DNA of 64,000 nt, from positions 14,523,312-14,587,311 of the forward strand of contig NC_092675.1 in NCBI RefSeq assembly GCF_964355755.1, written 5' to 3'. Positions 11,871-50,463 of this stretch are shown here, in pieces. The translations under genes were made by a program, and so were the position numbers. Every line of letters begins with the position of its first letter. The stretch's first letter is position 1. The notes under the pieces are model-generated. The model ran no database searches and was not told the DNA's origin. It saw only the letters and a list, made by a program, of their open reading frames with translations. The DNA comes from Antedon mediterranea (Eukaryota; Echinodermata; Crinoidea; Comatulida; Antedonidae).

Positions 11871-12779
11871 CGATTTTTTTTTTCGTACATAAGTTGGGGA
11901 CCCCCTCATGAAACGTCACAAAATAAACATGAATAATTCATCAGTTAAATTTTCTTGTTCCTTGTGCACCCAAGCGTATAGCAACAAGAAGTGATTACAC
12001 AACTGCGATACGATACTTTTACAGTCGGCCTAGGATTCTAAGTCAATTCACGTGATTGCCTTCGCGCACTCTTCTTCACACACACACACACCACTATGCA
12101 AAATGTGTCGAGTCGAGGCTAATCGACAGCTAGGCAAGACTTTACACTAAGTAGTAATTCATTGGACATAGCCCAAAGAAAGCTTAGACCCACAAGAATA
12201 AAGAATGTGTATAATTTGTGTACTGTATTTTTTTAATTCTGCTATTTTATTATCAAACAATATGCATGTAATCAAAGGAACTTTAAAAATGCGCGTATAT
12301 GAACACATGCGATGGGAAGGTTAGACCCACGAGAATAAAAAATGTATTTTTGTGTAATGTTTATTGTTTAATTTTGCTGACTCTAACACACACGTCACAC
12401 ACACCAACACAGCTACTACTCTAGAATAGACACGGGTTTAGAGAATAGTAATTAGGCCTAATAGTATAGTATCAATAGAAACTATAATTTTAACACGTAA
12501 TTCTTTAGTAATAAATTATATTAAACACACCATAAACTAAAGGCTGATTATTTCGACAATCCACACAAAACGCCGCTATTCTATTATGAAATCGCACGCG
12601 GCAACCACAGCGGAGATAGGCCTAGAATCGTACCGCACTGTGTAAACTACTGTTATCACTTCTTGTTGCTATACGCTTGGGTGCACACGGAACAAGAAAA
12701 TTTAACTGATGAATTATTCATGTTTATTTTGTGACGTTTCATGAGGGGGTCCCCAACTTATGTACGAAAAAAAAAATCG
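11871..12779. mobile_element. Palindromic MITE, complete copy (about 909 bp)
   Basis: Both ends carry CGATTTTTTTTTTCGTACAT in opposite orientation, and the arms stay paired for about 150 bp (TTGGGGACCCCCTCATGAAA; CACCCAAGCGTATAGCAACA). The interior is AT-rich and has no gene. A second whole copy is at 49,561-50,463, a split copy flanks the large element (27,573-27,732 and 48,182-48,425), and a worn end is near 14,185-14,265. Outer flanks gave no convincing target duplication. Confidence 0.85.
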
Positions 12780-26104: not shown

Positions 26105-26215
26105 GTCATAAAGCGATAAAACGCATAGTGATACCGGACCGACAGACAGACAGACCGACAGACAAACAGACCGACCGACATAGTGAACTATAGAGTCGCT
26201 TTCACGCGACTAAAA
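26105..26215 (+). repeat. GACC-rich dispersed module
   Basis: GCATAGTGATACCGGACCGA, then GACAGACAGACAGACC-type tetranucleotides, CATAGTGAACTATAGAGTCG and a terminal hairpin AGTCGCTTTCACGCGACT. The satellite array starts directly after it. Confidence 0.85.
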
Positions 26216-27572: not shown

Positions 27573-27732
27573 CGCGATTTTTTTTTTCGTACATAAGTTG
27601 GGGACCCCATCATGAAACGTCACAAAATAAACATGAATAATTCATCAGTTAAATTTTCTTGTTCCGTGTGCACCCAAGCGTATAGCAACAAGAAGTGATT
27701 ACACAAGTGCGGTACGATTCTAGGCCTATCTC
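27573..27732 (-). mobile_element. Left part of a 0.9-kb MITE interrupted by the large element
   Basis: Matches one arm of the MITE at 11,871-12,779 from its end (CGCGATTTTTTTTTTCGTAC) to GGCCTATCTC, where the 20-kb element begins. The MITE sequence continues at 48,182 with TATCTCCGCTG. Confidence 0.9.
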
Positions 27733-28366
27733 TACGGGGCGCCGTATGGGACATTGCTAATTTTGTCGAAATATTACAATTTTGTCTACACATAATTAAT
27801 TTTGTCAATACAAAATTTATTTTGTCAACACAAAATTAATTTTGTCAATACAAAATTAATTTTGTATTGACAAAATTCATTTTGTATTGACAAAATTTAT
27901 TCTGTGTGGACAAAATTCATTTTGTCTCGACAAAATTAATTCTGTGTAAACAAAATTCATTCTGTGTAGACAAAATTAATTCTGTGTTGACAAAATTAAT
28001 TCTGTGTAGACAAAATTCATTCTGTAACGACAAAATTCATTTTGTGGCGACAAAATTCATTCTGTAACGACAAAATTAATTTTGTATAGACAAAATTAAT
28101 TCTGTGTGGACAAAATTAATTCTGTGTAGACAAAATTCATTCTGTGTGGACAGAATTCATTTTGTGGCGACAAAATGTATTCTGTGTAGACAAAATTTAT
28201 TCTGTGTAGACAAAATTCATTCTGTGTAGACAAAATTCATTCTGTGTAGACAAAATTAATTTTGTGGCAACAAAATTCATTTTGTCGCGACAAAATAAAT
28301 TTTGTTAGCCGAGCCTACTCAAGCGTGGGACAAAACGTTTTAACATTTAAATTAGAAGGCGGGGTT
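27733..28366 (+). repeat. Left terminal inverted repeat of the 20.4-kb element
   Basis: After the tip and a 60-bp unique stretch, about 25 units of 20 bp of the form CAAAATTAATTCTGTGTAGA run from about 27,800 to 28,305. The core ACAAAATTAATTTTGT is a perfect palindrome, so single strands could fold at every unit. The array ends in TTGTTAGCCGAGCCTACTCA and AAATTAGAAGGCGGGGTT, matched in inverse at 47,530-47,640. Confidence 0.9.
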
Positions 28367-30120
28367 GTTATTGGAAACTTGAAGATTGACAGTTATAGGC
28401 CTACGATCAAACAGCGCGCGAATATCATTTTACGACCTCCTCTACACCGGTGCCAACAAATTGTTAATAGGTAAGCAATTTAAATTAATTTATCCACCGT
28501 GAGTAAAAGCAAACTAATTAAGCAACAGTCTAATATGGAACTTGAATACTTTTGCGTCGAGTATAAGTACAGTTTATACTGACGTATAACAGTTGTATAC
28601 TTAAAATTAATTCCGATTCAGCAAAACGGAACACGTAGCCCTATATATGCCTACCAATTTTGGTAATAAATATTAAAGATGGTTGAAGATTTATATCGAT
28701 ACCGATAATATTGATTAAGAAAATGACAACACTATTTACGATAACATCTGATAAGTTGAGTAGTAATGAAATGATTTTAGTTAATACATTTATTTTAATA
28801 TAATAGTTAGTATAGGCCTATTTATTCTTATGAGAATGCGTCGTCTATATAGGCCTACCAAGTTTATTTGATAGGAATACTAAATTGCTAATAGGTCTAA
28901 TTCAAGGGAACAAAACTATGATATATCTCTTAAGACATATATTAATTGTCTCTAATTGGAATAATAGCGATATCTTTATTGAAAAGATATCTTGGTTAAA
29001 AATAGGGATATATCTATTGGAACCTAAGATCTATAGGCCTATTGTAAACTAATTACATCTATTAAAAACTAAGATATTTTAGTTGCCTAAATAAATGATT
29101 TGATACGCCATAGATTATGATATTGCAAATTGTCGTTAAAGAGTTAAATTTAATTTCAAATTTACGTTTAACTATAATTTTACTCTCGGTTGCATATTAT
29201 TACATATTTACACCCTCGAAAGATATAATTCAACTTTGACCGAATAGTTATATGGATGTTCACACAACTGACATATGGCGCCTCTCAAGTATCCATTCCC
29301 ATGGCAGTGTATATAACCCCTCCACCTTCTCCATCGTAAAATAAGTAGAAATGACAGTTTTTTCAACAACAGCGATCAAAGATAATTAATCACCTTAAAG
29401 GACCAGTTGCCTGGCTTACCACCCAACCATATTCTTTTTGTATATACCATATTACTTATACATCATTATTTTGGTGCAGTCTTTAATCCATTATTGTGAA
29501 ACCTACTTTCCTTCACATATCTGAATGAACTATATTCCTTCCATCAAAATGTTGTTACTGTATAAATAATTTAGACTGCACGTACCTACTTATACATTGT
29601 GACATGACACTACACTATGAATAGATTGTTGCATTTTTGGGGATGAGACAATTATTCTATAACCTAATAAATTCATGATATGTCATTTATTCCCTGTCTA
29701 TTTTATAAATTATTCGTTATATGTTGTTTTACTTGTGTTTATACTGTTTTAAAAGTGTGATAGTTGACAAAATTATTAACAGTTATTGTACAGATGACAT
29801 TCGTATTGAAAAAAAAAGTTTATCTAGCATCTAGGCATGTATATCGTCAGGGAAAATTTTCATTTAAAAATTTTGTTTAGCAATATTGCTAATCAAACTT
29901 ATTTTTAAGTCGAGAAACATAGTTTTGTATTGTATTTTTTGCTACACAATTTTCAAAATGAGTAGCAATAAGGTTGTTTTGTATAGCTTTTTGCTACGCT
30001 ACACTGGCGAAAATGTTCCCTGTATCGTACTGTACAAAGTTTCTAAAAGCAAAACATTTATTTTTATTTCAAGACAGAAATTTAATACTATAGGTTGTAT
30101 GATACTACAGTATTACAACA
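28367..30120. other. Leader region of the HECT gene; no gene recognised
   Basis: AT-rich sequence with scattered TAGGCCTA words. GGCGGGGTTGTTATTGG at about 28,357-28,373 has GC-box and CCAAT-like words and could be a promoter lying at the inner edge of the left TIR. A possible 3' splice site (TACTACAG) precedes the start codon at about 30,110, which suggests an upstream untranslated exon; this is inference. Confidence 0.35.
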
Positions 30121-33100
30121 ATGGAAGACTCAGATGACACAATTCAGATTTCTTCAAAGGTAAAGGCATAGACAAAAACCTGCATGACAGGCTCGCATTC
30201 ATTTTTTTCCATTCCCAGTGTATTTGTTATTTTGAAAGAAGTACCTTTGTAAATTGAGTAACGATTTAAAGATGTATTTCAAAATAAATAAGATTATCAT
30301 TAGTTATCATGGATCTTTAAAATAAAAATACAAGAGAAATTGTACTGTATTCATATTTACACTCAATTTACAATTTATCAGCTTTTTAAGGAATTGCTTG
30401 AAAAGTGTTTCCAGCAGATTCCCACCCAGCCAGTGTCAGCGTCAATGCCTTTGCCAAGCAGACAGCAGACTCTCACCCAGCAGACGTCGCCATCGTCCAG
30501 GCCTTTGCCAAGCAGGCAGCAGGTTCCCATCCAGCAGACGTCAGCGTCCAGGCCTTTGCCGAGCACTGCAGCTGCTGGGTCCTCGACATCATTACAATCT
30601 TCAACATCAACGTTCGTTCCGAGAAGATTAAGGAGGCCCGCATCTTCTTTATCACGGCTTCCATCGCTGATGGAGAATAAAAATGATGAGGAAGACGACT
30701 CTGGAAATGACTTTTTACCATCGCGTCCCGGGAGTTGTAGGCAATTTGTAAGTTTTAAAAATAGTTCATAAAATCAAATTTTTCTTCATTTAATTGTTTA
30801 CCGATTTACAAACATACGCTCCACTTTCCCCATGAAACATTATTTGGAATAAAAAAGTCATTGTTGCTGTACTTATTTCTACTGTGGGCATTCCTTCTCA
30901 GCCCGGTGAAGGTTTTGTCAGCCCGGTAAAATCCGTCCCCCGCCCCGCGCCTCGCTACTGAAATCTACAGTAAGTTATTTGTTTATCCCGCTCCCACTTT
31001 TAACACAAAATGTATCTATATTTTCGTATAGCCTCCTCTTCGATTTGGATCATCCCGAAAAAGGGCACATACAGTGAAAAATGAAAGCAAAAAAAAAAAG
31101 AAGGTTTCAAAGGTTATAACTAAAGAAATAGTAATGCTACCAATGGATTCGCAAAAAGACCACAATGGAGACTACGAAGTTCCCAAACCAGAAAGAAGGT
31201 GTGATTTGATCCACCGTAAATTGGTAGCGAAAATTGCGCTCCGTCGGTCAGACTCTGCTGATGAAGTTAGGGAGCAAATGGAGTCGATATTTGGAAGTAT
31301 GGCATACACATTTCTGCAGGTAATGATAACACAAAAAAAACACAAAAAAGAAAAAAACAACAAAAAAACATGTAGGCCTATAACAAGTTACGGTACTTTC
31401 ATAATAACAATTGTGTTACAATGCGTTATATTTTGTGTTATTTTTTTAAGATACTACCTGGTAACAAAAAACTGTCAAAACCTCTATTTTCGAAAAATTG
31501 CCAGTTAAACGGCGAGACCGTTCTGTCTCTTTCACCACAAGGCAGGATCTATTCTCTGGCACTAGAAGAGGTAAGTTTCCTAATATTACTTAAACATGCG
31601 GAACGATTCAAATTAAATGAGAGGGTTTGATAGTGTTTAACAACCTCGTGGACTTACAAAATTAAATAAAAATTAAAAAAACATATTCAAATTGTAATTA
31701 CAGTACGCTTTACGTACTCGGTATAGCATTACTATTTTCTAAACAGATATACTCTGAAAAATATATAGTTGTTTATTATGTATTATGATTCTATAATTAA
31801 ACTATATTTCAGACTACAAATACTAACAAAGAAGTGTACATAACCGATGACGAACCACTAGAACCAGACAGGCTTACTGACCAACCATTGGCGTCTTCGC
31901 CTCTTGCTTCGCCATCTTCAGTTACGTTTCTGGTACGATTTTAAAGTTTACAACTGAATGTAATGTGTATTATTGTGTAGATGACTTCTAGAATAATACT
32001 GATAAGAATATAACATCATAATACAACTATTAATTCATACATTTTGAATTCATTATCTTTTATAAATTTTAGGAATCTATCAGTGAACCACCAGAACCAA
32101 GGTCACCACCACCAATAGTAAGTTCCTCTTTGTTGCGATTTTAAAGTTTACAACTGAATGTAATGTGTATTATTGTGTAGATGACTTCTAGAATAATACT
32201 GATAAGAATATAACATCATAATACAACTATTAATTCATACATTTTGAATTCATTATCTTTTATAAATTTTAGGAATCTATCAGTGAACCACCAGAACCAA
32301 GGTCACCACCACCAATAGTAAGTTCCTCTTTGTTGCGACTTTGTGTTAGAATAAATCTTTAGCCAAGTTGATTTATATTTCTATCTGAGTTATTCTGAGT
32401 TGTTTTCAATACATAAACTTCTTTTAAAGCACTTTTGCCTTTTTATGTTTTGATTTTCAAATTGTTCGATATGTTTTAATACTCTATATATAGTCAAGCT
32501 GATAAATTAGACATTGTACAACAGACTTACTAAATTTGTTTTTTATATTTCACTCGTTTTTTTAGACTTTAAGATTTTCTTAAAATGGTTTTATTACCGA
32601 GCATATGTAATTCTTATTTTTCCTTACTCTCTTATATTGATAATTTCTTTAATAGTTTAATTTTGTTTAAATCCAAATTAAGAAATATTTGTAGTTGGTT
32701 TAAGGTGCTTTGTTTTGTTGATGTTCCAGTTGACTCGTATTACTATGTATTTCGTTCTGTGAGTGACAGAATTAAAAAACGATAAAAGCTATTCATTTAG
32801 GCCTATTATCATTCCAGGAGAATGTTGAACTATCTTCGGAGCCAAGGTCACCATCTCCACCACCACCAGAACTGTCGTTTTATGTAGGTTGGGCTTATTC
32901 GACTATAAGTGATATTACTAGAGCATTATACCAATTACATTGCTAGAGTGCTTTGCTGTGTAACCAATCGATTTATATACCAGTTAATTTTTTAAATGTA
33001 CAATAAAGTTATGAAGTAATCAGTGTAGATAGTGATTATGAAAGTATAATAAAGTACAGTTTAGTATAAGGTTGGGGTAATTAATTGATCACATAGGCCT

Positions 33101-36100
33101 TATTATTAAAACATTTTACCGATTAATAACACTATATCATTTTTAAAACTATTTTAGAAAGTTTTGACAGAATATTGAATTAAAAATATACCATTACTAA
33201 ATTCCTGTTAAAGGAGACAGTTTTACGTAATAACACGTTTCTTCCTTACATCATTATTTTGTTCCTCCATGCTTACACAACGTTTTGTCATTATAGGGAA
33301 CAGAACCTTGTTCGAATTGTTGTACGACATATACAGATGAATTTGGAAACTGTCTACGTTGCAGTCAAAATGACGAATTTGCAAAATGTGCCATGGAAAA
33401 TAAGTTTAAGACTGCCTATGTTAATGCCCAGGTTAGGCGTAGATTTAACTTCTTTATATCAACTAATACGGCGTATTTAATAAAACTCAAAGTGTAACAA
33501 TAAACAATAATTGTGATTCAGTAGCATTGCATCGTAGCTTTAAACGATTTAAATAAAACCTAATAACCATCAAATTTATTAATATATTTAATTTAGTCTT
33601 GTATGTAGCAGTACTTACATTAATGCACTATTTTCCATCGCGCACGGTCTTTCAGTTCTTTTTGGTTGTTCTAACACATAAGAAAGCCAAACCCTATCTG
33701 ATATTATAATATTTTACTTTCTAACAACGGCAGAAAGAAAGAGACGATTCAATCATGAAACTGCAAGCGGAAGAAGAATCCACGAGACTGGAAGAAAGAG
33801 AATCAAGACGGAGAGAGGCCCGTCTTGCAGTCATGACAGATGAGTGTGGGAAGAATATAAAATTCAGATTTAAAAATGCACAGGCAACGCACACGTTTCC
33901 AGAAAATGCATTATACAAGGTAAAACAAAACGATAAAGTAAAACAGCCAGAAAAATTAGCAGAGCTTTCGGGCAATACTAGCCCTTCATCAGTGAGAGAC
34001 TATGATATATATGTATATATAAAAGCCGAGGTCAATACTTTATAAATTCCGTTGCAGGACTTATTCAATTACATAATGGCGCAGCCAGCATCTACAGAGT
34101 TATTCTCTGTTAGTGGACACAACTTTTTTACATCAAATAGGACTGACGTGTGTCTAGAAACACCACTTCCTTTATCGGTATTTGGGACAATTCTAAATGT
34201 GCAATGGCTTGGAGATAGGAACGACGACTCTGAAGGCCTGACCACGTAAGAAATACATTGACTCTTGTTAAAAATTGTAAATATAGAAACAGTTCACAAA
34301 ATGTTCATGTAAAACACGGCAATTCGTTTTTCGAGATAGAAAATAAAGCATACCACTAGCAAGCTAAGTAAAAAAAAAATCACTAAATTTTAAATCGTTT
34401 TCAGATATATGCAAAAGTGTGACAAACCTTATCAACATTTTTTAAAAGAAGATATGGACACATCAACTGAAAATTTCGCAGATATAGACATGTGAGTTTT
34501 TTTTATTAATGATGTACAGGCATAGATAAACACTAAACCGTCCTGAAATATGGAAAATTAGCAATAAAAAAAAACAGAATTGTACCTGAAACCTTTTGCA
34601 GTATTACTGTTATACATTAGTGTGATAATAAACTGCCAGATAATAAACACAATAAAAATAAACAAATGATACAATTTTAAATGAAAACCTAACACTATCT
34701 TTTTTTGTCATAGTGATACAAGAGATCGCCTGAGAGAGCTTTTAAAAGAACTGAAAACGAAGGCTCAGAAAGGTTATTCAAAACAACCAAATTTTGTGAT
34801 GTGCCGACGCCTTTTTGTAGTCGAAGATATTATGAGTCACTTCCAATTCCATTTACAAATTGATCCTAGTGGTAAATGGCTAGAACAGCCTTACAGAGTG
34901 AAATTTATTGGTGAGTTACAACACATTTTATGTGTGTTACACTTTCATCGACTTAAAAAAAATTGTGTGGTTGGCAAGTCGTTATTTGTATGCTTTTTTG
35001 ATTTGTTAAACTTATATACTGTACACAACTACTAATATTTAATTACATTTTAAACATTTGTTTTTCGTTGTTAAGCATGACCAGTGCATATATTTATTTT
35101 TATAAATCATATACTGTATCTTTTATTTTTTAGGCGAATCTGGAATTGATCTTACTGGTCTCGGAAGGGAGATGGCCACATTATTTTTAAATGGCCTTAC
35201 CAAATCCCACTACCTAAATTGCTCGACTCTACGAAAAAGCCAAGACATAATTGAAAAGAGGGGGTACATGGTGCTTGGCAATGTGATTGCAAACATTGCA
35301 ATTAACCATGGAATTTGCCCCGGGATCTTTGGTAAGCCAGTAGTAGCCCATCTCCTAGGTCTTCAATACCGATCTACCGACCCAAATGATGTACCGTGTA
35401 TGGAGTCGAGACAGCATCTGATTAAGGTACTGTAACTTATGGTGTGAACCAACATCTTATGTAAACATGGGCCCAAAAACAATCATTAAAATGTAATGTC
35501 GAACGTAATATGCAGATCTAAAACTGTGCATATGTTTCTTTCAAGCAGCTGTGAGTGCATTATAATCACAATTTTAAAATACTGCCTTCTATCAATAAGC
35601 TTGATAATTATTGTTTACATACATCAATTTCCAAATTCGGATGTTTATTAATCTTTTATCACGCTCTTAGATGTGTGCATCTAACACGGAGGATGAGTTT
35701 ATGCAACTGTCCAACAGTCTACCACTGGATGACTGGGGCATATGCACAAGTAAAAGAAGTGTCTGTATTGAGGACTTTCCAACTATCTTGCGACAATCTG
35801 TCGAGCAACTCGCTGTCTTAAATGTTCACACTGAACTAAGACAATTTGCAGAAGGTACAGTAATTTCTAATTAGTTCCATATTTTATTTATCAAATACTG
35901 TAAGCTCTATACTGTCACTGCGAGCTATATATAAATTGTTTCTTTTAAAATATTATTTTGTTTGTTAAATTGTTTTCACACACATAGGTAGAATTTTGTT
36001 TAACCTTGTATCTTCTTTGACATTAGCCACTAATACCCAAAACAATATTTTTCAGGTTTAAATGCATTTGGGCTATTAGACCATTTAATAAAGGATAAAC

Positions 36101-36895
36101 AGGTCGGTAGAGCATTTTTCAGCCGCCCACATGCATTGGACTCCGAGTGGTTTCTAGATGAAAACAATGTAGCATTTGAATACTCGGAAAATGGCAGTAA
36201 CCAACGAACGGAGGAGGAACAGGCACACATGGCATTTGTGCATCTGACTAAAAGTTTAGAACGTATGTAGGCCTAAATTATTAATGCAGTTTACAAAGCT
36301 TTGCTTTTCCAGTGCTGTTACTATTCAATGAATGGGGAATTATCGTCTTAGAAGGCTACTGTTGGTTAGTGACGATTGTTTGGGGAGGACGTAGGAATTT
36401 ATAGTAGGGGGATCAACAAAGACGTATTTAACATTAAGGTTTTGTACTTGATATACATTTTAAATATAACTTCCTGCATCAGATCCTCCCCACTCATAGA
36501 ATTCTTGATTGTCATGCCAAGTGTTAAATTAATGCAATGGCAGACCTACCCAGTAAGTAGGAAGTATGACATGTATCATGTAAGTTTGCTCTTATATTTT
36601 AAATGGAATGGTTAAGAAACGTGACGAGGGAAAAATAGACCTAAAAGACCTTCTACAGTTCTGGGTTGCGGTTGATGCCATCCCCCCTCAAGGACTGGGA
36701 ATGGTTTTAAAGGTCTGTTTTGTAGACGGCGTGCTACCCTCTTCCAACACATGTGCAGGGCTACTTCGTATTCCAAGACGAAGCAAAGTTGGGGAGTTGG
36801 AAGAAGCATTTAGAGAAGCTGTGATATGCAGTCCGTGCTTTGACGATGACGAAGTCGAGCCGGAAAATGACTTGTCAGCTGTCGGTCCACTTTAA
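30121..36895 (+). CDS. HECT-type E3 ubiquitin ligase (G2E3-like), multi-exon
   Basis: Exons with GT..AG borders keep frame: 30121-30159, 30382-30747, 31032-31319, 31451-31570, 31813-31932, 32073-32117, 32273-32317, 32818-32883, 33297-33431, 33734-33919, 34058-34245, 34405-34491, 34714-34910, 35134-35426, 35671-35854, 36056-36262 and a last one from about 36617. The product is near 950 residues. It has a Ser/Gln/Pro-rich N part with repeated RPLPS words, a basic block, a proline-rich part, a four-cysteine zinc ribbon (CSNCC..CLRC, exon 9), a charged helix, and a UBX-like stretch (FRFKNAQATHTFP to LNVQWLG). A short HECT domain follows: N lobe VKFIGESGIDLTGLGRE, C lobe LLQFWVAVDAIPPQGLG and SSNTCAGLLRIPRR with the catalytic cysteine at 36752-36754. 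HECT ligases pass ubiquitin from E2 via this cysteine. The join between exon 16 and the last exon is unsettled; a 26-nt exon at 36554-36579 would restore phase. Confidence 0.82.
31936..32335 (+). repeat. Perfect 200-bp tandem duplication holding a 45-bp exon
   Basis: 31,936-32,135 and 32,136-32,335 are identical in my base-by-base reading, including the acceptor, the 15-codon exon (ESISEPPEPRSPPPI) and the donor. Both exon copies are in phase 0, so the gene would simply gain 15 residues. Divergence begins right after the second copy (GCGACTTTGTG against GCGATTTTAAAG). Confidence 0.92.
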
Positions 36896-39149
36896 TTTTT
36901 TCTCTTAGTAAAACGAGTCTTCTGTTACACATACCGTATTAAAAAAGAGGATATGAAAGGGTTCCAAATTTACGTAGTACATACTGTTAAATATTCCTGA
37001 CTGAAATATTAAATTTCGTAGATGACGATAAAGCATAGTAAACAGCCCTAAGAAATGAAAAAAAAACCCGCTGGTGACGTCACTAGCGGAAACTTTTGTA
37101 CAGGGAACATAGGAATTTTTTGGTTAATCGTCCACTACGCCAAAACTATTTCGATATAAACTTATCCGCTTGGCAGTTTTATTCTTAAATGAATTATACA
37201 TCATAATTCGTTGAATTGAATTTCCTACCACTTTGTTTAGTCGCGTGGACGCGACTCTATAGTTCACTATGTCGGTCGGTCGGTCTGTCTGTCTGTCGGT
37301 CCGGTATCACTATGCATTTTAGCAGGCGACTTATGGCTGTTTGCCTTGTTTTTTTATTGATTTAAAATAGATATACATTTAAGACGAGGATGAGACTAGT
37401 ATTCATATTGATGTTGTTGGTTTGGATATTCATAGCTAGGTGGAGGTAGTAAAGTAGTACTACTATGTAAATATTATTATGATGAATGATTGAAATATAC
37501 TGTGTCACACATTTTCGTCGTCGCATGTTGTGTGACACACAATGTCAAACACGATTCAATACGGCTGCCGTGGATATTACCGCGGGTATTTCAAATACAG
37601 TAACTGAGCGATCGGACGTACGTGTGTTTAGAACGTTCTTAAAAACCAATATGGCGTGCAAGTTGGTCGGCCATTTTTCGAAGATTTTTATTAAAAACTT
37701 TATTTATTTAAAGCTAATTTTTGTTGTGTTGCTTATTTACATTAGAAAGATTCATAATCAATTATTTATTCAATTTTTCAAAACCCTTTCATATCCTCTT
37801 TAACACTCAGTTCTACCAACTGTTCTTAATTTTATATGTACTAGCAGTTACCTGTGCTCCGCATGGTCTTTTCATTTCTATTTTCAATGGTTGCTATTTG
37901 ATTACACTAATCCGTATTTTTGTGGGAGCTGTGTGATTAATTATGTTCAGGAATTGTGACATGCAATTGCAATTTTTCTAAACGATAAAAACAAAATGTG
38001 TACATCAGAGGGAATGTTTCTAGATGCAAAACTGCCACCTAAATCATGCAAACGACCTCTTATTGGTCACACATTGTTTTCGTGTTTAACAAAATTTAAA
38101 ATTACTTGGATTTCGTTTCCTTTTTTTGTGTATGTTGTTGATTTTCCCAATTTATACATTTGTTTTAATGCTTTTGATATTTGCATTTTTCTAATTGGAC
38201 TCGTAATGTGTGCCTATGTATACCAATACCTAAATGTAGTTGCAATTACCAGACATTTCAGTTTGTAAGGAGTATATGCTGTACTATACTCTTATTTGTA
38301 TAACTATTGCAACTTTAACGTACTGATTTTGTTAAACTATATATATATTTTTTTCAACAAATTAACGTTTATTTCTTTTAAAATAACAATACAAAACTAG
38401 AATTTAATTCGTCACTTTGACAAATTATAGGTGATCATTTTTATAATTTTAATGACATTTAATTTTTAAAACGATGCACGTACGTTAAAATACGATCGTA
38501 AAATGTTGACGTAAGCCATCCTATGACCCGATTATGTATACTCTTACAGTTCTGAGTTGTGCCTATTATTGTATGTATGATTAGATAATGTAGCCTATAC
38601 AGTATACACTGTATATCTATATACAGTGTAGGATAGGTGAAATTAGGGGACCCACATTATGTTCTAATTTTTTTGGTATGATGACGTTATCAAAATAAAC
38701 TTGGACGTGACAAATTCTGAAGATTATGAATTGAGCAAAACGTTATAAGATTTAGAACAAAATTCAAATTACTGTTATTTTTTGCCTGGTTTTATATGAT
38801 AAATAAAAAAAATTACCAATACAACCTAATGACGTGTTTGAAACAATTAATTAGTAGTTGTGCTTTTTCACTAAATCTCTTTTACTTGATATACCCACAT
38901 TGGCAATTTTGATTTTGATAACTTTTCTAGTAAATTTAATTATTTTAAAACCGGTCTCTTTTTCAACAATAACTTGTACACAACAACTGCGGTATACAAA
39001 GACTGGTTTTCCAGTATTCATTACTTTAAAGCTATAAGCTACAAGCTACAGGCATTAATTTAAGATATCTTCATTTTAAACTCAAAATATTATTGTAATT
39101 TCAATTGTAACTCGCGACAAAATGGTTTGTTAACTGTTATTATAATGGA
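36896..39149. other. Spacer between HECT and integrase genes
   Basis: AT-rich, no supported gene. 37,243-37,355 is an inverted GACC-rich module that begins TAGTCGCGTGGACGCGACT, a perfect short hairpin, and ends near GGCTGTTTGCCTTG. The open frame at 37,486-37,803 has no recognisable motif. 38,600-38,640 contains a TATACAGTGTA inverted repeat. Confidence 0.5.
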
Positions 39150-39295
39150 GGCGGGGCGTCTGAAATCATTTAGTTGTCATTGGCTATAGTTGTACTGTAG
39201 CAAGCGCCTTGACTGAAGAGTCGAAACCACAGCATACAGGAAGATTAAATATACTAAAAAGAGTGAGGAAATATTTCTTTAGAATAAGACAAACG
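39150..39295 (+). promoter_or_regulatory. Probable promoter and non-coding exon 1 of the integrase gene
   Basis: GGAGGCGGGGCGTC (Sp1-type GC box) and TCATTGGCTATAG (inverted CCAAT) lie at 39,149-39,190, unusual in this AT-rich spacer. They are followed by about 100 bp and a consensus-like donor ACGGTAAGC at 39,294-39,302. The next acceptor, AATTTAG (to 39,536), sits two bases before the integrase start codon. The exon is therefore probably untranslated leader. Confidence 0.45.
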
Positions 39296-39538
39296 GTAAG
39301 CTTTTTAAAATTTCTATAAATTTACAACCTGTTCGTTCTTAGGACTACGAACGTTAACAATATAATATATAACAATATATATATATTAACATATATTAAC
39401 AGTATAGGCCTATATATAATATTACCGCAGGCCTACATGTTCTTTAAAATTGAATTGTCTAAAAATAAATGCTCGATGTAGGCCCAATTTTAGATTGTTT
39501 AACCATCTCTAAAATTATTAATACGGTTTAATTTAGAT

Positions 39539-40798
39539 ATGGATCCGCCCGACATTAACGCCTTGCATGGTTTACTAGATGAAAACATTCCGATAACAAG
39601 AATCGCTGGAATACACAAGGTATGTATAAAATGAACGCTAAAAAAGAAAGAACACTTGCATTTGAAAAGCACTAATAAATCATAAACACTAAAAATGGTA
39701 TAGGCCTAAAGTACAATATATATATATTATGTTTCTTTTTCTGTTTAGGTGTGCAGAAAGACAATTTATAGGTGGTTGTTAAAATACGGTCTTAATTACG
39801 AGAGGTTTACAAATATATCTGATGATGAACTTGCCAACATCATTCGACATATAAAGAAGACACACCCGAACGATGGGGAAGTACTAATGGATGGCCATTT
39901 AAAAGCTAGAATTCCCCCAATTAAGATACGAAGACAAAGACTGAGAGCGGCAATACGTTTGGTTGACCCAGAGGGAGTTAAAAGGAGAAAAAGTGTTGCC
40001 ATCAGACGTCGGCAGTACTCCGTGCCTTGTCCACATTATATGTGGCATGTTGATGGAAACCATAAGCTGATAAAATACAAAATGGTCATACACGGAGGAA
40101 TAGATGGTTTTACAAGACTTGTTGTATTCATGAACATATCACCTAATAACCGAGCAACGACAGTCGAAGCCGGGTTTTTACAGGCAACTAACGAATTTGG
40201 TTGGCCCATTCGAGTACGCACTGACAAAGGCGGAGAAAACGCAATTGTATGGGACCATATGGTGTCTAAGAGAGGTGAATCTTCTGCTTTGCTTGGGAGT
40301 TCAGTCCACAACCAACCAATTGAACAGTTATGGGGGATTATAAATGACAGAGGTACTTCCCAATTCAAAGTATTGTTTAGAGACATGGAAGTTAATGGGG
40401 AGTTGGATGTTGAAAATGAAACGGACATTCTTTGTTTACACTGGGTTTTTTTACCATTAATACAAAACACATTAACTGAACTAGCGAAGTCATTAAATAA
40501 AAGAAAATTGTCAACTGAAAAACAGCGCACGCCTTTTCAGCTGGAGGCTGAATATATTCATCTGAAAAACCAATATGAGGTAAATCCAATTGCAACACAT
40601 GGTGGTGTGGACTTTCCGTACTTGGACCCAACATCACTAGAGAGGCCACTCCAGCAGGTAACGTGTGAGCAGTTTGAAGCTTTACCTGAAGAGGTCCTAG
40701 ACAACTTGCGTAATCTTGGAGAAGCCCAGACCCTCAGTCAAGGCAGAGCCATGTACAAGGGTGCTGTTCGAGTGGTCTCGAATTACATGCTTTCATAA
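39539..40798 (+). CDS. DDE integrase-like transposase, two coding exons
   Basis: Coding exon 1 (39,539-39,619) and exon 2 (39,749-40,798) join in phase 0 to give about 376 residues with no stop. Residues 10-45 look like a helix-turn-helix: ENIPITRIAGIHK, then RKTIYRWLLKYGL. A retroviral-type integrase fold follows, with acidic residues in WHVDGNHKL (Asp about 129), VRTDKGGEN (Asp about 186) and NQPIEQLWGI (Glu about 219), plus GGIDGFTRLVVF between them. There is no HHCC zinc finger, unlike the gypsy integrase at 10 kb. The family is common as stand-alone integrase-core proteins in aquatic animals. Gene and HECT gene share strand and lie within the same pair of TIRs; the likely role is cutting and joining the ends of the element (inference). 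All three catalytic residues are kept, so it could be active. Confidence 0.85.
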
Positions 40799-42200
40799 CT
40801 GCAAGATACACGCCAAATCGAGTATCCATGACGATTGCTTTCAATTTATAGACCTAACTTTGATAGCCCCTTGTTATTACTTGCAAGTATACCTGCCCAA
40901 GGACGGGTTTCAAATGTTATTTAAAACATTCCCAGTACAATTCTGATCACTTTGATACCGATCATTACCCACATAACTTTAGTATCTCCGTAATACTCAC
41001 CCACCCCTACACTTCCTAACACCAGGGAGTTGTAATTACAACTCCCTGCACTCGGGTGACTTTTTGAAGTACAGTATATTGTTTAAAACCTTCCCAGGGT
41101 TAGGTTTGTTGATACGTATTACACGTGCACCATTTGTGTGGACGCGTGTATTAGCATTATTTTGTAAAACCCAGCAAACGCAAACTTACTAATTCTGTCT
41201 CGATTTATTTACGTGGTCTGTATTAAATTTAAAATATGTTTTGTTACAAATATGTAAATTTTGTATCTGTATATGTTTATATGATTCTATATTTAAATTA
41301 ACTGTTTTTAGTTTTTCTATCTAGTTAGGTTTTATATTTACTTTTGTTTTTAGTCGCGTGAAAGCGATTCTATAATTCACTATGTCGGTCGGTCTGTCGG
41401 TCGGTCCGGTATCACTTTGCGTTTTATCGCGTTTTCTGTACTCTTTGAACTGCACGCGACTCATTACGCGGACCAGGCTACTTTAGCGTTACGTTTGGCA
41501 TCCACTGAATCAGTGGATGACCTATCCCCTCAACATGTCAATTGTGGTATAAGTTGACAGGAATAATACTCTGTGGTGTAATAAAAATGCCAGCGTGTTT
41601 ATTTAAGACTGCAAGTGTTAAGAATAACTTGCTGTCCATTTTCAACTTCCTCTTACCAATGACCAATAGCAAACAGGCACTGCTTGTCAATCAGGTCCTC
41701 ACTGACTGGGTATTAACCAATCAATTTACTATTAGATAGGTCACTGATTTTATACAATAGTTTGCGGGAAATTTTATTTCTGACCTTATACAGGAATAAA
41801 TACTTTAGTGGTTGTTTATAATCTAATCTAAATATTTCTCAATGCTGCTTTATGCAAAGCAAAGGAATTTAACTAGAACTACAGACACATTAAATAAATA
41901 CTTTTAAACATGAACAATAGTTTTGCTAGGGAATTGGGATGGCCGTGTGATATTCAATTTATTAAATTTAATGGGAAAGTACAGTATATATCTTTCACAA
42001 AATGACTTAAAATATCTTCGTATGTCATCAGGCAGCGTTTTAAAGGCCATGGAAGCCCTTTGGTCGATTTTGGGAACAAAATGGATTGATAGGCAATCAT
42101 GAGTACTTCCGAACAGTGCTATAAATGTATCACGAAAGCATATTAGTGTTTCATGTTTTATTCACCTGTTGTTGGGTGGTGGACATCTTGTAGACAATAT
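40799..42200. other. No gene; palindrome at 41,023-41,048 and a GACC module
   Basis: 41,023-41,048 is a perfect 26-bp palindrome whose left half is CAGGGAGTTGTAA. 41,353-41,440 is an inverted GACC-rich module. About 41,468-41,498 (ATTACGCGGACCAGGCTAC) recurs inverted at about 46,168-46,197, bracketing the kinase relic and the 19-bp array. The stretch 41,735-42,065 is copied into the middle of that array. No coding region is supported. Confidence 0.55.
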
Positions 42201-42227
42201 GTACAGCAGCAACAAACATACATAATG

Positions 42228-43216
42228 GATACAAATGAACACAATTTAAATTTGATAACTCTACGCGATTTTATACGAGATAAATGCGTAGACTCGGTCA
42301 TCAATGACCGTCTACTTGATAATATAAACGACGAGCCCGTGGTTGAAATTACCTGGAAGAAAATGTACAACAGAACTATTAGAAAGAATTAATCGCAAAA
42401 GGGTTAGGCCCGGTAAGCCAGATATACCATGGAGTTCAAATATCCCCCGCCATTCCTCTTGATGGATTGAGGCGGCAGGCCTCAAAGCGATTTTAAAATT
42501 GAATGGAAGCGCATCGAAAATCAATAAAAGATCTTTCTCGGAAGATTCATTGTGGAGGAAAATCTGACTTGCATGGTAGGTAGAAATCAACAGTGCCAAT
42601 AAAAATAAAATAATTAACAAATTCTTATCAGATAGATCTACGTAAATGTGTGAAGTAGGACTAAAGAGGTCTTATTTACAGTATATCAGTAGGCCTAATA
42701 TATATTCGTATAAAATATCCTAATTTCCACAACTCAGGATTATGTCCATAATGATATCAATAGTAAGATTCTGTTATAGGCCTATGCGTAATTTTTTTTT
42801 ATTAAGCCACTAATTTTTCATTATCATACATTAAATTCAATTATACCATGATACATAATTCAGTGATTATTTTACAGTTATTTTCTCATTTTCCCAATTG
42901 TCTTTTCTCTTACAGGTAATAACGTGGTACGTGCTTCATGATTGATGGTAAAATTAATTTATACCTGTAACAATAGAGTATGGCAAGGCATTTCGGACCG
43001 GATGGAGTACTCCTTTAAAGTTGTCATCGGAGGAAAAGATTAGGTGGAAGAAATGCTTTCCATGGACTGCACCAGAAGTAATTTCTGGTGTCGAAGCACC
43101 ATCAGAGCACAGCGATATTTACGCGTTTGGATACATGTGCAGCCGCATATTTACCAAAACGAACAACATAAGAATTCGGGAAACTGCATGCGGCGGCCGT
43201 CACCTGCAGAGCTAGC
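42228..43216 (+). pseudogene. Protein-kinase-like relic
   Basis: The clear part is 42,970-43,212: EYGKAFRTGW, SEEKIRWKKCFPWTAPEVIS and SEHSDIYAFGYMCSRIF. This is kinase subdomains VII-IX: a degenerate D(F/Y)G region, an APE motif (TAPEV) and the DxYxFG motif. Just upstream (42,917-42,965) the frame breaks, with pieces resembling a catalytic-loop NNV and DGKINLYL. After CSRIF the similarity ends and a stop follows at 43,213. 42,228-42,580 looks weakly coding in two frames (LITLRDFIRDKCVDSVINDR; ELLERINRKRVRPGKPDIPW) and may be its N-terminal side. The N lobe, glycine loop and lysine were not found. It is dead, but it is further captured coding sequence inside the 20.4-kb element. Confidence 0.65.
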
Positions 43217-43599
43217 TTGGCCACCACCTTTTATGTAATAACGTTAGATCATGAATAATTAAAAGTCATACGTTTTTCAGAATAGATTTTTAAAAAAGGG
43301 GAGCAATAAATTGTAGCTTTGTTTTCTTTTATTTATTATTAGTTTATGTATACATATTTTTTTATTTTTCGTATTCGTATTTAATGTTATATTTCGGGGT
43401 GGGTAAAACTTACTGACTGGCTTATTATGACTCTCTCCCCACATGATTACTTCATTGCATTTATTATCCTGTATGTATGTTATTATATTGTGGAAATAAA
43501 ATAAAATAAATAAAATAAAATTGAAATTGAAATTATATTTATTTGCAATTATCACATATTTTGTTCTATTTTACATTGTATAAAATTGTTATAAAACGA

Positions 43600-45410
43600 T
43601 GACAACATACAATGACAGGAAAAACAGTAGCAGGATACAAAAACAGTTTCTGGGTACAAAACATTTGTAAAAAAAAATTGTTTTGTACAAAAACATTGAC
43701 TGGGTACAAAAACGGTGGTAGGGTATAAAAACAGTGGCAGGGTACAAAAACAGTGGCAGAGTACACAAACAGTGACAGGGTACAAACACGGTGGCAGGGT
43801 ACAAAGTCGATGGCAGCTGGGTAAAAAATCAGTAGCAGGGTACAAAAACAGTAGCAGGGTACAAAAACAGTGGCAGGGTACAAAAACGGTGACAGGGTAC
43901 AAAATAGATGGCAGCTGGGTACAAAAACAGTAGAAGGGTACAAAAACAGTGGCAGGGTACAAAAACGATGGCAGGGTACAAAAACGATGGCAGATGGGTA
44001 CAAAAACAGTGGCAGGGTACAAAAACGGTGGCAGGGTACAAAAACGGTGGCAGGGTACAAAAACGATGGCAGATGGGTACAAAATCAGTGGCAGGGTACA
44101 AAAATAGTGGCAGGGTACAAAAACGGTGGCAGGGTACAAAAACAATGGCAGTTGGGTACAAAAAAATGAGCAGGGCACAAAAACAGTGGAGGGTACAAAA
44201 ACGGTGGCAGGGTACAAAAACGATAGCAGCTGGGTACAAAAACAGTGGCAGGATACAAAAACAGTGGCAGGGTACAAAAACAGTGGCAGGATACAAAAAC
44301 GGTGGCAGGGTACAAAAACGATGACAGCTGGGTACAAAAACGGTGGCAGGGTACAAAAACGGTGGCAGGGTACAAAAACGGTAGCAGGGTGGTACAAAAA
44401 CAGTGTCACTGATTTTATACAATAGTTCGCGGGAAATCTGATTGCTGACCTTATACAGGAATAAATACTTAGTGGTTGTGATATTCCATTTATTAAATTT
44501 AATGGGAAAGTATATCTTTCACAAAATGATGTATGTATGTCAGGCAGTGTTTTAAAGGCTGGAAGCCCCTGGTGGAAGGGTACAAAAACGATGGCAGCTG
44601 GGTACAAAAACAGTGGCAGGGTACAAAAACGGTGGCAGGGTATATACAAAAACGATGGCAGGGTACAAAAACGATGGCAGTTGGGTACAAAAACAGTCGC
44701 AGGGTACATAAACAGTGGCAAGGTACACAACCAGTGGCAGGGTACAAAAACGGTGGTAGGGTACAAAAACAGTGGCAGGGTACAAAAACGGTGGCAGGGT
44801 ACAAAATCGATGGCAGCTGGGTACAAAAACAGTTGCAGGGTACAAAAACAGAGACAGGGTATGACAAGCAGTGGTCTAGGGTACAAAAACTTTTGTTGTA
44901 TACAAAGTGTCTGGGAAAAAAGACGATGACAGCTAGTGGTACAAAAACGGTGGCAGGGAAACAAAAACGGTGGCAGAGTACAAAAACGGTTGCAGGCTAT
45001 AAAAACAGTCGCAGGGTACAAAACAGTGGCAGGGTACAAAAATGGTGGCAGGGTATAAAAACAGTGGCAGGGTATAAAAACAGTGGCAGTGTACAAAAAC
45101 AGTGGCAGGGTACAAACACGATGGCAGCTGGGTACAAAAACTGGGGCATGGTACAAAAACAGTAGCAGGGTACAAAAATGGTGGCAGGGTACAAGAACAG
45201 TGGCAGGGAACAAAACAGTGTCAGGTACAAAAACAGAGACGGTACGACCAAGCAGTGGTCTAGGATACAAAAACTTGTGTTGTATCCAAAGTTTCTGGGA
45301 AAAAAAGAAGATTGCAGGGATACAAAAACGGTGGCAGGGATACAAAACAGTGGCAGAGTACACAAAATTGTGTTGTACTAAAACAGTGGCAGGGTAAAAA
45401 ACATACACAC
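43600..45410. repeat. 19-22 bp minisatellite inside the large element
   Basis: The basic unit is GGCAGGGTACAAAAACGGT (19 bp) with a 22-bp variant GATGGCAGCTGGGTACAAAAAC. It runs with few breaks from 43,600 to 44,400 and from 44,580 to 45,400. Between these is a copy of local sequence (44,403-44,578, matching 41,735-42,065). The unit has no stop codon in several frames on either strand, which produces open frames up to 668 codons; these are not genes. Confidence 0.92.
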
Positions 45411-46843
45411 TTATTTGTAGCATTTTACAAAAAAAGTATCGGTCCGGAGTATTCATCAACAGAGCTAAACAAATGAAGGAAAGGGTCAGAACATGTGACT
45501 CTGGCAGATAACAGATAACATTACTTTTCAAGAGTAATAAGAAAAAAGGAATTAACATATTACAGTATATTCAATTTGTTAACCTAAATATATCTTTCAT
45601 TTTTAATTTAAGATAATTATTTACATGATGATAACACTTTTTAATGTGTATTAATTTAAATTGGTTATTTAAATTAATAACATATTCATTCATATTCATA
45701 ATTGTCAATCATTTTTTTCCATTAAAACTTAAAAATTGGCTATTTGTAGTTTATTGTATTAATCTTTATGGTTTATTTTACATCATTTATATCTCAATGT
45801 ATATTGCATTATTGTTATTATCTTTGATTAAATATTAATATTATGTACTGTAGTACGTCCTATACACATTTTTAAAAATGCTCAACAAAGTCTCAAACCA
45901 CATAAAATCTAAAAGTTGAAACTGAATATTTAATGGCCCTTGAGAATTCTAGGTAGCCTGCGAAAAGGTCATCAAGGCCAAATTTAAGAGGATGACTCAA
46001 GCTCTTCCATGCGAATCATCTCAGGTTAGACCAACCTCCAGCAGTGGGCAGGACTTGTAGTTAGAACTTGTGTCTCAAATGACACTCCAGGGCAATAAAA
46101 TCACAATAACTTACAAAGCACTGACAGTAATTGCTTGTCAAAACCAAATTGCCTAACCGTAACGCTAACGTAGCCTGGTCCGCGTAATGTTACAGTGGCT
46201 GTTGGCCTTGTTTGCTAAATGCTTTTGAAAGAAAAATGGTAAAGCACTTTCTTTACCTCGACTCACGAATCAAATGATTTAAATTGAAAACAGAGTCCGA
46301 TGCTGTTGTTTGAATATAATAATGTTAAAAATGCTAGATATAAATGTTATGTTTCTATGCTTATTTTACAACTTCATGGTTGATTTTATTTATTATACAT
46401 TGCTAATTGCAAATAATTGTTTATAGGTTTACATTGTTCGTTGTACTTTTGATGTACGTATTCAGTCTTTGTTGGCTGGCTTGATAAGATTGATGTTAAA
46501 TAAAAATGCATTTTCCACTAATAAAATATGGAGTTGTATCGAGAGAGTATCGTAATTTCGGGCAGAATGGTTTTCGGTCTGGAAAGGTCATTATTACACT
46601 GTCTGGGGTGTTGATATTTATACATCGAATGTTTTATGGGCAATCAGTCCTGAACCTAGCCAACGTAGGCTACCTGGCCTACTTACTACTGTAGGTTAGA
46701 GGTTATTAGGTTTCGCAGGGTGGATGACTGTTATAATAAAACTAACGTGAACAATTTTTTGTAGTCAGTTCTTTAAATGTTTTTTTTTCTTCCAATAACG
46801 GACAGCTTTCAGCATCATTATTTCTGCAATGATTATTATTATC
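45411..46843. other. No gene recognised
   Basis: AT-rich. About 46,160-46,215 contains the inverse of sequence at about 41,468-41,500. The 62-codon open frame at 46,506-46,694 has no motif I can name. Confidence 0.5.
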
Positions 46844-47174
46844 TTAAAGATATATTGTCCCCTGAAAAAATGTTTTTTTAAATCTTTTTGTTGAATAGGC
46901 CTATGTTATTTTAATGTCACATAATAGTTATTCACTTTCACAAAAAATTGGGTCTCCAAAAAAAATTATTTACCTGAAAAAAACTGTAATTTAAAGCAAA
47001 AAATGGTCAAATTGTCTGGAAGCCAATGAGTTTTTGGGTAATTTAACTGTTTATTTTGTCTTGAAATAATTTTTTTCCCCGTTCTATTTTCTTATGGAAG
47101 TGAACAACTTCATTAAAACTGCATAATGGCCTATTCTTTATTTTTCATGATTTTGGGAGACAATACATCTTTAA
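46844..47174. mobile_element. Small MITE with TTAA ends
   Basis: The left edge reads TTAAAGATATATTGTCCCC and the right edge is its near inverse complement, GGGAGACAATACATCTTTAA. The length is 331 bp including TTAA at both sides, as expected for a piggyBac- or Kolobok-type MITE with TTAA target duplication. Parts of the same sequence occur near 13,130-13,310 and 59,290-59,410. It lies inside the 20.4-kb element, so it may be a younger insertion. Confidence 0.6.
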
Positions 47175-47529
47175 TTTTAAAATAAAGTAGATACATTTTA
47201 TAAGATTAATAAATAATATTTTAAACGACAAAATATTAAATAGCCCCATTACTACAATTTTACTTAAGTAATAAGCAGGGCTCTAATGAAAACCATTTTC
47301 CGATTTTTTTAATATAGAATACATTATAATAATAATTATTACTGACGACGTAGATATTAAATTGTCAAAGTATGAATACTGATCATATCTGGTATTTTCA
47401 GGGGTTCCCTGATATTATAAAATAGATTAATATGATAGCAATAGAGACGGAGGCATGCTCAGCCATAATAACTTAACCAATAACAAATGTCAAAGATAGC
47501 TTCACCCTGTCTTGCCCTTTTCACGTTTA

Positions 47530-48181
47530 AACTCCGCCTTCTAATTTAAATATTAAAACGGAGCCTACTCAAGCGTGGGACAAAATGTTTTAAAAAACGT
47601 TTTGTCCCACGCTTGAGTAGGCTCGGCTAACAAAATTTATTTTGTCGCGACAAAATTTATTTTGTCTCGACAAAATGAATTTTGTCTCGACAAAATGAAT
47701 TTTGTCTCGACAAAATGAATTTTGTTGCAACAAAATTCATTTTGTCTACACAGAATGAATTTTGTCTACACAGAATTAATTTTGTCCACACAGAATGAAT
47801 TTTGTCCACACAGAATGAATTTTGTCGTTACAGAATGAATTTTGTCTACACAGAATTAATTTTGTCCACACAGAATTAATTTTGTCTACACAAAATGAAT
47901 TTTGTCGTTACAGAATGAATTTTGTCTACACAGAATTAATTTTGTCAACACAGAATTAATTTTGTCTACACAGAATGAATTTTGTTTACACAGAATTAAT
48001 TTTGTCGAGACAAATGAATTTTGTCCACACAGAATAAATTTTGTCAACAAAAAATGATTTTTGTCAATACAAAATGAATTTTGTGTTGACAAAATGAATT
48101 TTGTATTGACAAAATTAATTATGTGTAGACAAAATTGTAATATTTCGACAAAATTAGCAATGTCACAAACGGCGCCCCGTA
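47530..48181 (-). repeat. Right terminal inverted repeat of the 20.4-kb element
   Basis: Inverse of 27,733-28,366, with about 24 units of 20 bp (ACAAAATGAATTTTGTC type). It contains an extra local inverted duplication at about 47,561-47,631, where GAGCCTACTCAAGCGTGGGA occurs in both orientations back to back. The terminal 90 bp differ from the left TIR at only a few positions. Confidence 0.9.
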
Positions 48182-48425
48182 TATCTCCGCTGATTTCATA
48201 ATAGAATAGCGGAGTTTTGTGTGGATTGTCGAAATAATCAGCCTTTAGTTTATGGTGTTTTTAATATAGTTTATTACTAAAGAATTACGTGTTAAAATTA
48301 TAGTTTCTATTGATACTATTAGGCCTAATTACTAGTCTCTAAACCCCTGTATATTCTAGTAGTAGTAGCTGTGTGGGTGTGTGTGACTTGTGTCTTTGGG
48401 CTATGTCCAATTACTACTTATAGTC
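48182..48425 (-). mobile_element. Right part of the interrupted 0.9-kb MITE
   Basis: Resumes with TATCTCCGCTG and follows the MITE interior (GTGGATTGTCGAAATAATCA; AAGAATTACGTGTTAAAATT) to about 48,425, with small internal deletions. The second terminal arm of this MITE copy is missing. Confidence 0.85.
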
Positions 48426-48969: not shown

Positions 48970-49490
48970 TCTAATGACGATTGGTGTGTACTGCATGACA
49001 ATTGGTGTGTACTGCATGACCATTGGTGTGTACTGCATGACTATTGGTGTGTACTGCATGACCATTGGTGTGTACTGCATGACCATTGGTGTGTACTGCA
49101 TGACGATTGGTGTGTACTGCATGACCATTGTGAACTGAAGGCAGAGGAGGCGTTCCATAGTGTACTGCATGACGATTGGTGTGTACTGCATGACGATTGG
49201 TGTGTACTGCATGGTAAATGTGAACGACGATTGGTGTGTACTGCATGACAATTGGTGTGTACTGCATGACCATTGGTGTGTACTGCATGACGATTGGTGT
49301 GTACTGCATGACGATTGGTGTGTACTGCATGACGATTGGTGTGTACTGCATGATGTTTGGTATGTACTGCATGACGATTGGTGTGTACTGCATGACGATT
49401 GGTGTGTACTGCATGACCATTGGTGTGTACTGCATGACGATTGGTGTGTACTGCATGAAGATTGGTGTGTACTGCATGATAAATGTGAAC
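48970..49490 (+). repeat. 21-bp minisatellite
   Basis: The unit GACGATTGGTGTGTACTGCA plus T is repeated about 22 times, with variants at the third to fourth base, and is interrupted twice by pieces containing GTGAACTGAAGGCAGAGGAG. Because 21 is a multiple of three, open frames run through on both strands; they carry no codon pattern of a protein. Confidence 0.92.
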
Positions 49491-49560: not shown

Positions 49561-50463
49561 CGCGATTTTTTTTTTCGTACATAAGTTGGGGACCCCTCAT
49601 GAAACGTCACAAAATAAACATGAATAATTCATCAGTTAAATTATCTTGTTCCGTGTGCACCCAAGCGTATAGCAACAAGAAGTGATTACACAACTGCGAT
49701 ACGATTATTTCTACAGTAGGCCTAGGATTCTAAGTCAATTCACGTGATTGCCTTCGCGCACTCTTCTTCACACACATACCACTATGCAAAATGTATCGAG
49801 TCGAGGCTAATCCGACAGCTAGGCAAGACATTACACTAAGTAGTAATTCATTGGACATAGCCCAAATAAACCTTAGACCCACAAGAATAAAGAATGTGTA
49901 TGATTTGTATACTTACTTTTTTTTAATTCTGCTATTTTATTATCAAACAATATGCATGTACTCAAAGGAACTTTAAAAATGCGCGTATATTTATATGAAC
50001 ACATGAGATGGGAAGATTAGACCCACGAGAATAAAAAATGTATTTTTGTGTAAGTTTATTGTTTAATTTTGCTGACTTATTACTCGGATTGTGTCATACC
50101 AACACACACACGTCACACATACCCACACAGCTACTACTAGAATAGACATGGGTTTAGAGACAAATAATTAGGCCTAATAGTATTAATAGAAACTATAATT
50201 TTAACACGTAATTCTTTAGTAATACATTATATTAAAAACACCATAAACTAAAGGCTGATTATTTCGACAATCCACACAAAACGCAGCTATTCTTCTATGA
50301 AATCGCACGCCGCAACAACAGCGGAGTCTGAGATAGGCCTAGAATCGTACCGCAATACGCTTGGGTGCACACGGAACAGGAAAATTTAACTGATGAATTA
50401 TTCATGTTTATTTTGTGACGTTTCATGAGGTGGTCCCCAACTTATGTACGAAAAAAAAATCGC
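49561..50463. mobile_element. Palindromic MITE, second complete copy (about 903 bp)
   Basis: Same ends and interior as 11,871-12,779 at high similarity. At the position where the 20.4-kb element entered the split copy, this copy has six extra bases (AGACTC after TATCTC, read on the minus strand). A (GCGA)n microsatellite at 50,467-50,492 follows its right end. Confidence 0.88.

Follow-up and report, generated by a model that had tools for sequence, protein, structure and literature searches.

A 64,000-nucleotide stretch of the genome of the crinoid Antedon mediterranea (NCBI RefSeq assembly GCF_964355755.1, contig NC_092675.1, positions 14,523,312 to 14,587,311 of the forward strand; hereafter the window, on contig C6 of the genome searched) holds a 20,449-bp element at its positions 27733-48181, with the termini TACGGGG..CCCCGTA. 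The element has long terminal inverted repeats (TIRs), lies between two copies of a 6-bp target-site duplication (TSD), and carries a DDE transposase gene together with a gene for a predicted HECT-type ubiquitin ligase. It represents a real, once-mobile DNA transposon family with unusual, array-built TIRs and this ligase-like cargo. The features that define the insertion are the following.

27727..27732, unstranded: left TSD TATCTC, directly outside the left end
27733..28366, plus strand: left TIR, 634 bp (the length given by an earlier sequence-only reading of the window), with the terminal TACGGGGCGCCGT, a weak outer site, 26 sites and an inner domain
47522..48181, minus strand: right TIR (inner limit approximate), with a weak outer site, 25 sites and an inner fold-back
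48182..48187, unstranded: right TSD TATCTC, directly outside the right end
12443..12771, minus strand: uninterrupted copy of the host repeat (a related empty site), 89% over the whole 300 nt of the query described below, E 2e-127
50159..50455, minus strand: second uninterrupted copy of the host repeat, 82% over the whole 300 nt, E 1e-98

The terminal sequences are TACGGGGCGCCGT at 27733 on the left and ACGGCGCCCCGTA at 48181 on the right. In the empty-site test, the two 150-bp flanks were joined by script with a single TATCTC kept, and the resulting 300-nt query recovered the two uninterrupted repeat copies listed above. The exact junction, GGCCTATCTCCGCTG, is present once, at 12608-12622 on the minus strand, against a chance expectation of 0.03 at up to two mismatches; this is the uninterrupted form that the sequence-only reading had located near 12,610. 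The shared ends, the TATCTC duplication and the uninterrupted host repeat copies therefore establish one insertion event, i.e., 27733-48181 is a single insertion, as that reading had claimed. Tandem repeats adjoin the insertion on both sides, namely a 190-bp repeat in about seven copies at 26212-27466 on the left and a 21-bp repeat array (ATGACGATTGGTGTGTACTGC) at 48974-49479 on the right.

Each TIR consists largely of an array with a 20-bp period (27778-28305 on the left and 47630-48135 on the right), and the two arms are 90% complementary over 421 nt. Read inward from either end, the internal order of the TIRs is identical, in agreement with the earlier description; an extra small inner fold-back in the right TIR is consistent with the greater length (about 652 bp) that the sequence-only reading gave for it. 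Nearly every unit contains a 16-bp near-palindrome (ACAAAATTMATTYTGT, by eye), which occurs 26 times on the left and 25 times on the right, and one weaker outer site per side lies 39 bp further out than the array. The spacing within the arrays is exactly 20 bp in 25/25 cases on the left and 23/24 on the right, and most sites pair at 6-8 of 8 positions (right-hand exceptions: one with 4, one with 5). The dyads thus lie two helical turns apart, an arrangement suggestive of a dimeric helix-turn-helix (HTH) protein that occupies successive sites along the same side of the double helix. These are predicted binding sites, probably, and most simply, for the transposase of the element.

39539..40798, plus strand: DDE transposase gene in two exons (39539-39619 and 39749-40798), 376 aa, stop-free model, PF24764

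The transposase was matched by Pfam to PF24764 (rva_4) with E 8e-57, with rve below the cut-off, and its catalytic residues D129, D186 and E219 are invariant or at least 90% conserved across 30 aligned proteins. A weak N-terminal HTH match covers residues 5-40, and no zinc-finger Pfam match was obtained up to E 0.1. An AlphaFold model of exon 2 reached a pLDDT of 86.5, and Foldseek with this model returned retroviral integrase cores as the best PDB matches (E about 3e-6). In a set of 5.8 billion proteins, 53 relatives were found, the best being 63% and 61% identical, the latter from Mytilus edulis; relatives occur in mussel, brachiopod, coral and fish. When 30 of the 54 sequences were placed in a tree, the transposase grouped with P0001-P0003 (support 100/98). 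A literature search on PF24764 found nothing.

Against its own genome (354 Mb in 18 contigs), the transposase query gave 96 matches. One of them is the window gene itself and another a broken copy on contig C8, 96-97% identical, with frame shifts and one TAG; besides these there are more distantly related families, at 27-53% identity, and short fragments (24-63 aa, 76-92%). At eight loci (C3:10867847, C4:14145483, C11:14153625, C1:3069347, C8:21793428, C3:3616137, C3:15568662 and C9:13288991), a transposase 43-46% identical to that of the window over about 170 aa lies in open frames of 263-290 aa, one of them with a stop inside the match; these loci perhaps represent another family.

Polinton/Maverick elements have a 6-bp TSD, long TIRs, a size of 15-20 kb and an integrase-type enzyme, and their ends are AG..CT. 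The present element resembles them in its TSD, long TIRs, size and integrase-type enzyme, features that would also fit a reduced or decayed Polinton/Maverick, or a Polinton-like virus, from which the genes for polymerase, ATPase and capsid had been lost while the integrase remained. However, its ends are TA..TA rather than AG..CT, and a six-frame Pfam scan of the element detected no PolB, ATPase, protease or capsid, a result that is weak for short exons because the same scan, run on stop-masked frames, found the transposase and missed a HECT exon that was seen by a short-ORF scan. Among viral contigs of IMG/VR, 38 pattern matches to the transposase yielded no confirmed relative. With other ends, none of the Polinton genes found by the scan and no confirmed viral relative, a Polinton origin is not supported and is considered highly improbable. 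The scan agrees, within its limit for short exons, with the earlier statement that polymerase, ATPase and capsid genes are absent, and the Polinton/Maverick framing attached to that statement fails on the TA..TA ends, the PF24764 transposase without a zinc finger and the lack of Polinton genes.

The second gene of the element lies upstream of the transposase gene, on the same strand.

30121..36895, plus strand: HECT gene, 18 exons, 969 aa, no internal stop, 17/17 introns GT..AG
exons 1-6, plus strand: 30121-30159, 30391-30747, 31032-31319, 31451-31570, 31813-31932, 32073-32117
exons 7-12, plus strand: 32273-32317, 32818-32883, 33297-33431, 33734-33919, 34058-34245, 34405-34491
exons 13-18, plus strand: 34714-34910, 35134-35426, 35671-35854, 36056-36266, 36483-36552, 36617-36895
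36617..36895, plus strand: C-lobe exon with the catalytic-cysteine motif GVLPSSNTC (Pfam, PDB alignment)

Its splice sites were picked by hand; after exon 16 the next GT was taken as the donor, which keeps the frame open. Pfam detected PF00632 at residues 886-946 (E 4e-9, 36.8 bits against a cut-off of 23.9), and in the PDB comparison LPSSNTC aligns, weakly, with the catalytic LPTSHTC of E6AP, with further weak alignments of an N-lobe stretch to E6AP and SMURF2. Judged by the catalytic-cysteine motif, the encoded protein looks like a HECT-type E3 ubiquitin ligase. The two Pfam matches, PF00632 and PF24764, confirm the earlier proposal that the element carries a HECT gene together with an integrase-type enzyme. 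Exon 9 (33297-33431) encodes a short cysteine-rich stretch, CSNCC..CLRC, which could be a small metal-binding motif. A 200-bp tandem duplication at 31931-32342 (99% identical) doubles exon 6 in frame; in the C8 copy both exon 6 and exon 7 align to a single site, and this copy seems to have only one unit of the duplication.

Against the 5.8-billion-protein set, residues 470-969 of the HECT protein gave no relative at E 0.001 among the 7,997 best word-sharing candidates scored, and the last 495 residues alone gave none at E 0.01 among 6,879 candidates scored. Within the genome, the second half of the protein matched the window itself; a copy at C9:12.05 Mb, which covers residues 84-502 of the 502-residue query and has lost one base in exon 14; a fragment at C4:14.60 Mb; and, at 24% identity, a distant locus on C10. 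Among the open-licence papers listed, judged by their titles and the beginnings of their abstracts, none reported a HECT gene in a DNA transposon; HECT is absent from the main text of PMC4255032 and from the passages of PMC12062965, and the mention located in PMC6027436 refers to a mimivirus protein.

Comparison of copies shows purifying selection in a single exon of the HECT gene, exon 14. When the window is compared with C4, this exon has a dS of 0.47 and a dN of 0.07 (dN/dS 0.15), and 22/37 changes are synonymous vs 23% expected (p 2e-6). The transposase of the window compared with that of C8 gave a dN/dS of 0.21, with 8/14 changes synonymous (p 0.004). These data bear on the possibility that the HECT gene is only a passenger, taken up passively and without a part in transposition. 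Such a passenger would agree with the movement of short derivatives that lack the gene (see below), with the absence of relatives among the candidates scored from the protein set and with two of three HECT comparisons that lack significant constraint; set against it are the eighteen exons without a stop, the low dN/dS of exon 14 and the presence of HECT exons in a second copy of the element on C8. On balance, the passenger explanation is unlikely, if far from negligible.

Other copies of the family were sought with the left TIR, the six duplication bases included in the query, and 40 of 144 candidates were scored, giving at least 113 match rows. DNA was fetched around the better matches, and ends were located in 31/48 loci. 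With three C1 copies of identical flanks taken as a single one, 12 independent two-ended insertions were obtained (11 fetched plus that of the window), and the same TA..TA ends are present in other copies. Nine of the 12 carry an exact 6-bp duplication (TATCTC, TATATT, GTGTAG, TAGAAT, CTTTTC, AATTAG, ATCACT, TATGTG and CTCTAC), and the insertion at C1:36.86 Mb has a duplication with one mismatch; the 6-bp target duplication noted earlier for the window recurs in the family, and the lack of any other copy with these ends, which would have refuted the sequence-only reading, is contradicted by numerous copies that share them. Other places have one readable end each. Four of them (C4:10.28, 10.80 and 10.86 Mb and C10:9.80 Mb) have a single common flank and seem to derive from one insertion by duplication. 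Identical near flanks are shared both by these four and by the copies at C1:8.14, 8.39 and 8.44 Mb, so that the element has probably been duplicated together with its surroundings in larger segments.

These copies include a recurrent deletion junction, in which element position 1602 is joined to 18640 at 18 fetched places (14 after merging shared flanks). Five are simple derivatives of 3.3-3.6 kb (C3:37.33, C2:23.49, C2:26.01, C3:16.23 and C6:28.59 Mb), and the others contain further insertions; a 74-bp piece of the transposase gene is kept in many deletion derivatives, and a 983-bp form of the element exists on C10. Such a pattern is typical of non-autonomous copies that depend for their movement on a transposase encoded elsewhere. 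The copy on C8 contains part of HECT exon 3, exons 4-8, transposase exon 2 and the right end, in the same gene order as the window; parts of both genes therefore occur together in two copies. Of the earlier expectation that HECT plus integrase cargo would recur, the part concerning pieces of both genes holds for C8, whereas both genes were found whole in the window only.

The abundance of short family copies could also be taken to favour a composite, in which a host segment with a HECT gene of the host lay between two inverted short elements and was transposed together with them in one event. However, no inner ends were seen within the window, and the short copies hold pieces of the interior of the long element (1-1602, 18640-20449 and often the 74-bp transposase piece), which indicates that the interior is native. 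In addition, HECT exons and transposase follow each other in the C8 copy as they do in the window, and in the genome search no whole paralogue of the HECT half was found outside the window, only the matches on C9 and C4 and the distant one on C10. Given the contents of the derivatives and the C8 gene order, a composite of two short elements is not supported and is regarded as very unlikely.

Part of the 20.4-kb span does not belong to the basal element.

41462..46189, unstranded: a nested, different transposon of 4,728 bp with 40-bp TIRs beginning CATTACGCGGACCAGG (inverted repeats plus uninterrupted copies)
42958-43215: kinase-like exon within the nested transposon (PK_Tyr_Ser-Thr, E 3.5e-4, below cut-off)
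43685-45236: 19-bp minisatellite of about 78 units within the nested transposon

The copies at C8:7.57 and C7:11.35 Mb are uninterrupted across the nested-insertion point; at C4:35.49 Mb the insert is missing too, though with a junction shorter by about a dozen bases. The copy at C9:23.87 Mb contains the same 40-bp inverted-repeat ends 5.3 kb apart. With 4,728 bp nested, about a quarter of the length, the basal element is about 15.7 kb; the earlier figure of 20.4 kb thus stands for the span of one insertion and not for the element proper. The kinase-like exon is not counted as cargo of the element, since it sits inside the nested transposon.

Taken together, these results make it likely that the element is an IS3EU/GingerRoot-type cut-and-paste transposon of about 15.7 kb (20.4 kb with the nested element) with an accessory HECT ligase kept by selection. 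The N-terminal HTH of the transposase would bind the 25-26 palindromic sites arrayed at each end, and the enzyme would cut at the TA..TA ends and join them to the target with a 6-bp stagger; the same transposase would account for the short internally deleted copies. The putative HECT ligase may provide an accessory function acting on host or transposase proteins, and would most likely ubiquitinate host proteins involved in silencing or restricting the element, or else adjust the level of the transposase.

Several observations weigh against parts of this explanation. The window is the only copy found with both genes whole, no left end of the C8 copy was present within the 19.8 kb fetched, and no left-TIR match was found beside the C9 and C4 HECT copies among the 40 of 144 candidates scored. 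Two of the 12 insertions (C6:28.59 and C9:23.87 Mb) lack a duplication at the expected place; at C9:23.87 Mb, the six bases of the left flank recur 4 bp past the right end. Pfam detects the C-lobe of the HECT protein only, and experimentally determined HECT structures align with the protein only weakly (best E 0.009), single domains alone not being significant. HECT exons 3-8 against C8 gave a ratio of 0.33 (4/8 synonymous, p 0.11), and exons 14 and 18 against C9 gave 0.76 (2/7 synonymous, p 0.51); with few changes and a decaying copy, these two comparisons lend no support to selection. The IS3EU/GingerRoot assignment itself follows described traits, the transposase tree holding PF24764 relatives only.

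A further, rather doubtful proposal is that in an animal lineage of IS3EU-type transposons the element-encoded HECT E3 ligase serves as counter-defence cargo, by which silencing factors of the host are destroyed or reprogrammed; its role would be comparable to that of the TET/JBP genes, through which fungal transposons have been proposed to evade methylation. Enzymes that are carried by transposons and modify host proteins are candidate anti-silencing weapons, and the HECT gene, with 18 stop-free exons inside an element of defined boundaries and with numerous transposed derivatives in the same genome, offers a testable case. A ubiquitin-ligase-like gene is unusual cargo for a cut-and-paste DNA transposon, and the long palindromic arrays provide a model for why some transposons carry long repetitive ends.

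Among known systems, complete IS3EU families always have TA..TA ends, usually have a 6-bp TSD and lack the HHCC motif (PMC10045372), and fungal members are described with TAYGG..CCRTA ends and with alpha-kinase and TET/JBP cargo genes (PMC12730594). The TACGG..CCGTA ends of the present element fit this pattern, as do its 6-bp TSD, TIRs longer than 30 bp and cargo (PMC10045372, PMC12730594), and its DDE transposase without HHCC has the first D at 129, within the stated range of 100-300 (PMC10045372). It differs in its TIRs of about 640 bp, built mostly of 20-bp palindromic units, in its HECT ligase cargo and in its length of about 15.7 kb without the nested element. Based on these described traits, a variant of IS3EU/GingerRoot fits better than the distinct type of giant element that the sequence-only reading had proposed, about a quarter of whose length is the nested element.

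The 7.9-kb Styx element of Zymoseptoria is described as IS3EU-like, with extra genes and 6-bp TSDs, and movement is described even for a copy whose integrase is not functional (PMC10853768). The present element is similar in its IS3EU-type transposase, 6-bp TSD and extra genes, whereas Styx is smaller, fungal and equipped with other cargo, and an array TIR is not mentioned for it in the passages on it (PMC10853768). Long TIRs with tandem repeats are shared with the foldback-type elements Tetris and Galileo and with a sea-urchin element (PMC4079207, PMC4168063), and the TIR tandem repeats of Galileo from D. buzzatii are said to hold additional transposase-binding sites (PMC4079207). However, Galileo has a P-superfamily THAP transposase, and the units of the foldback elements, as described, are longer than those of the present element, at about 220 and 140 bp (PMC4079207, PMC4168063).

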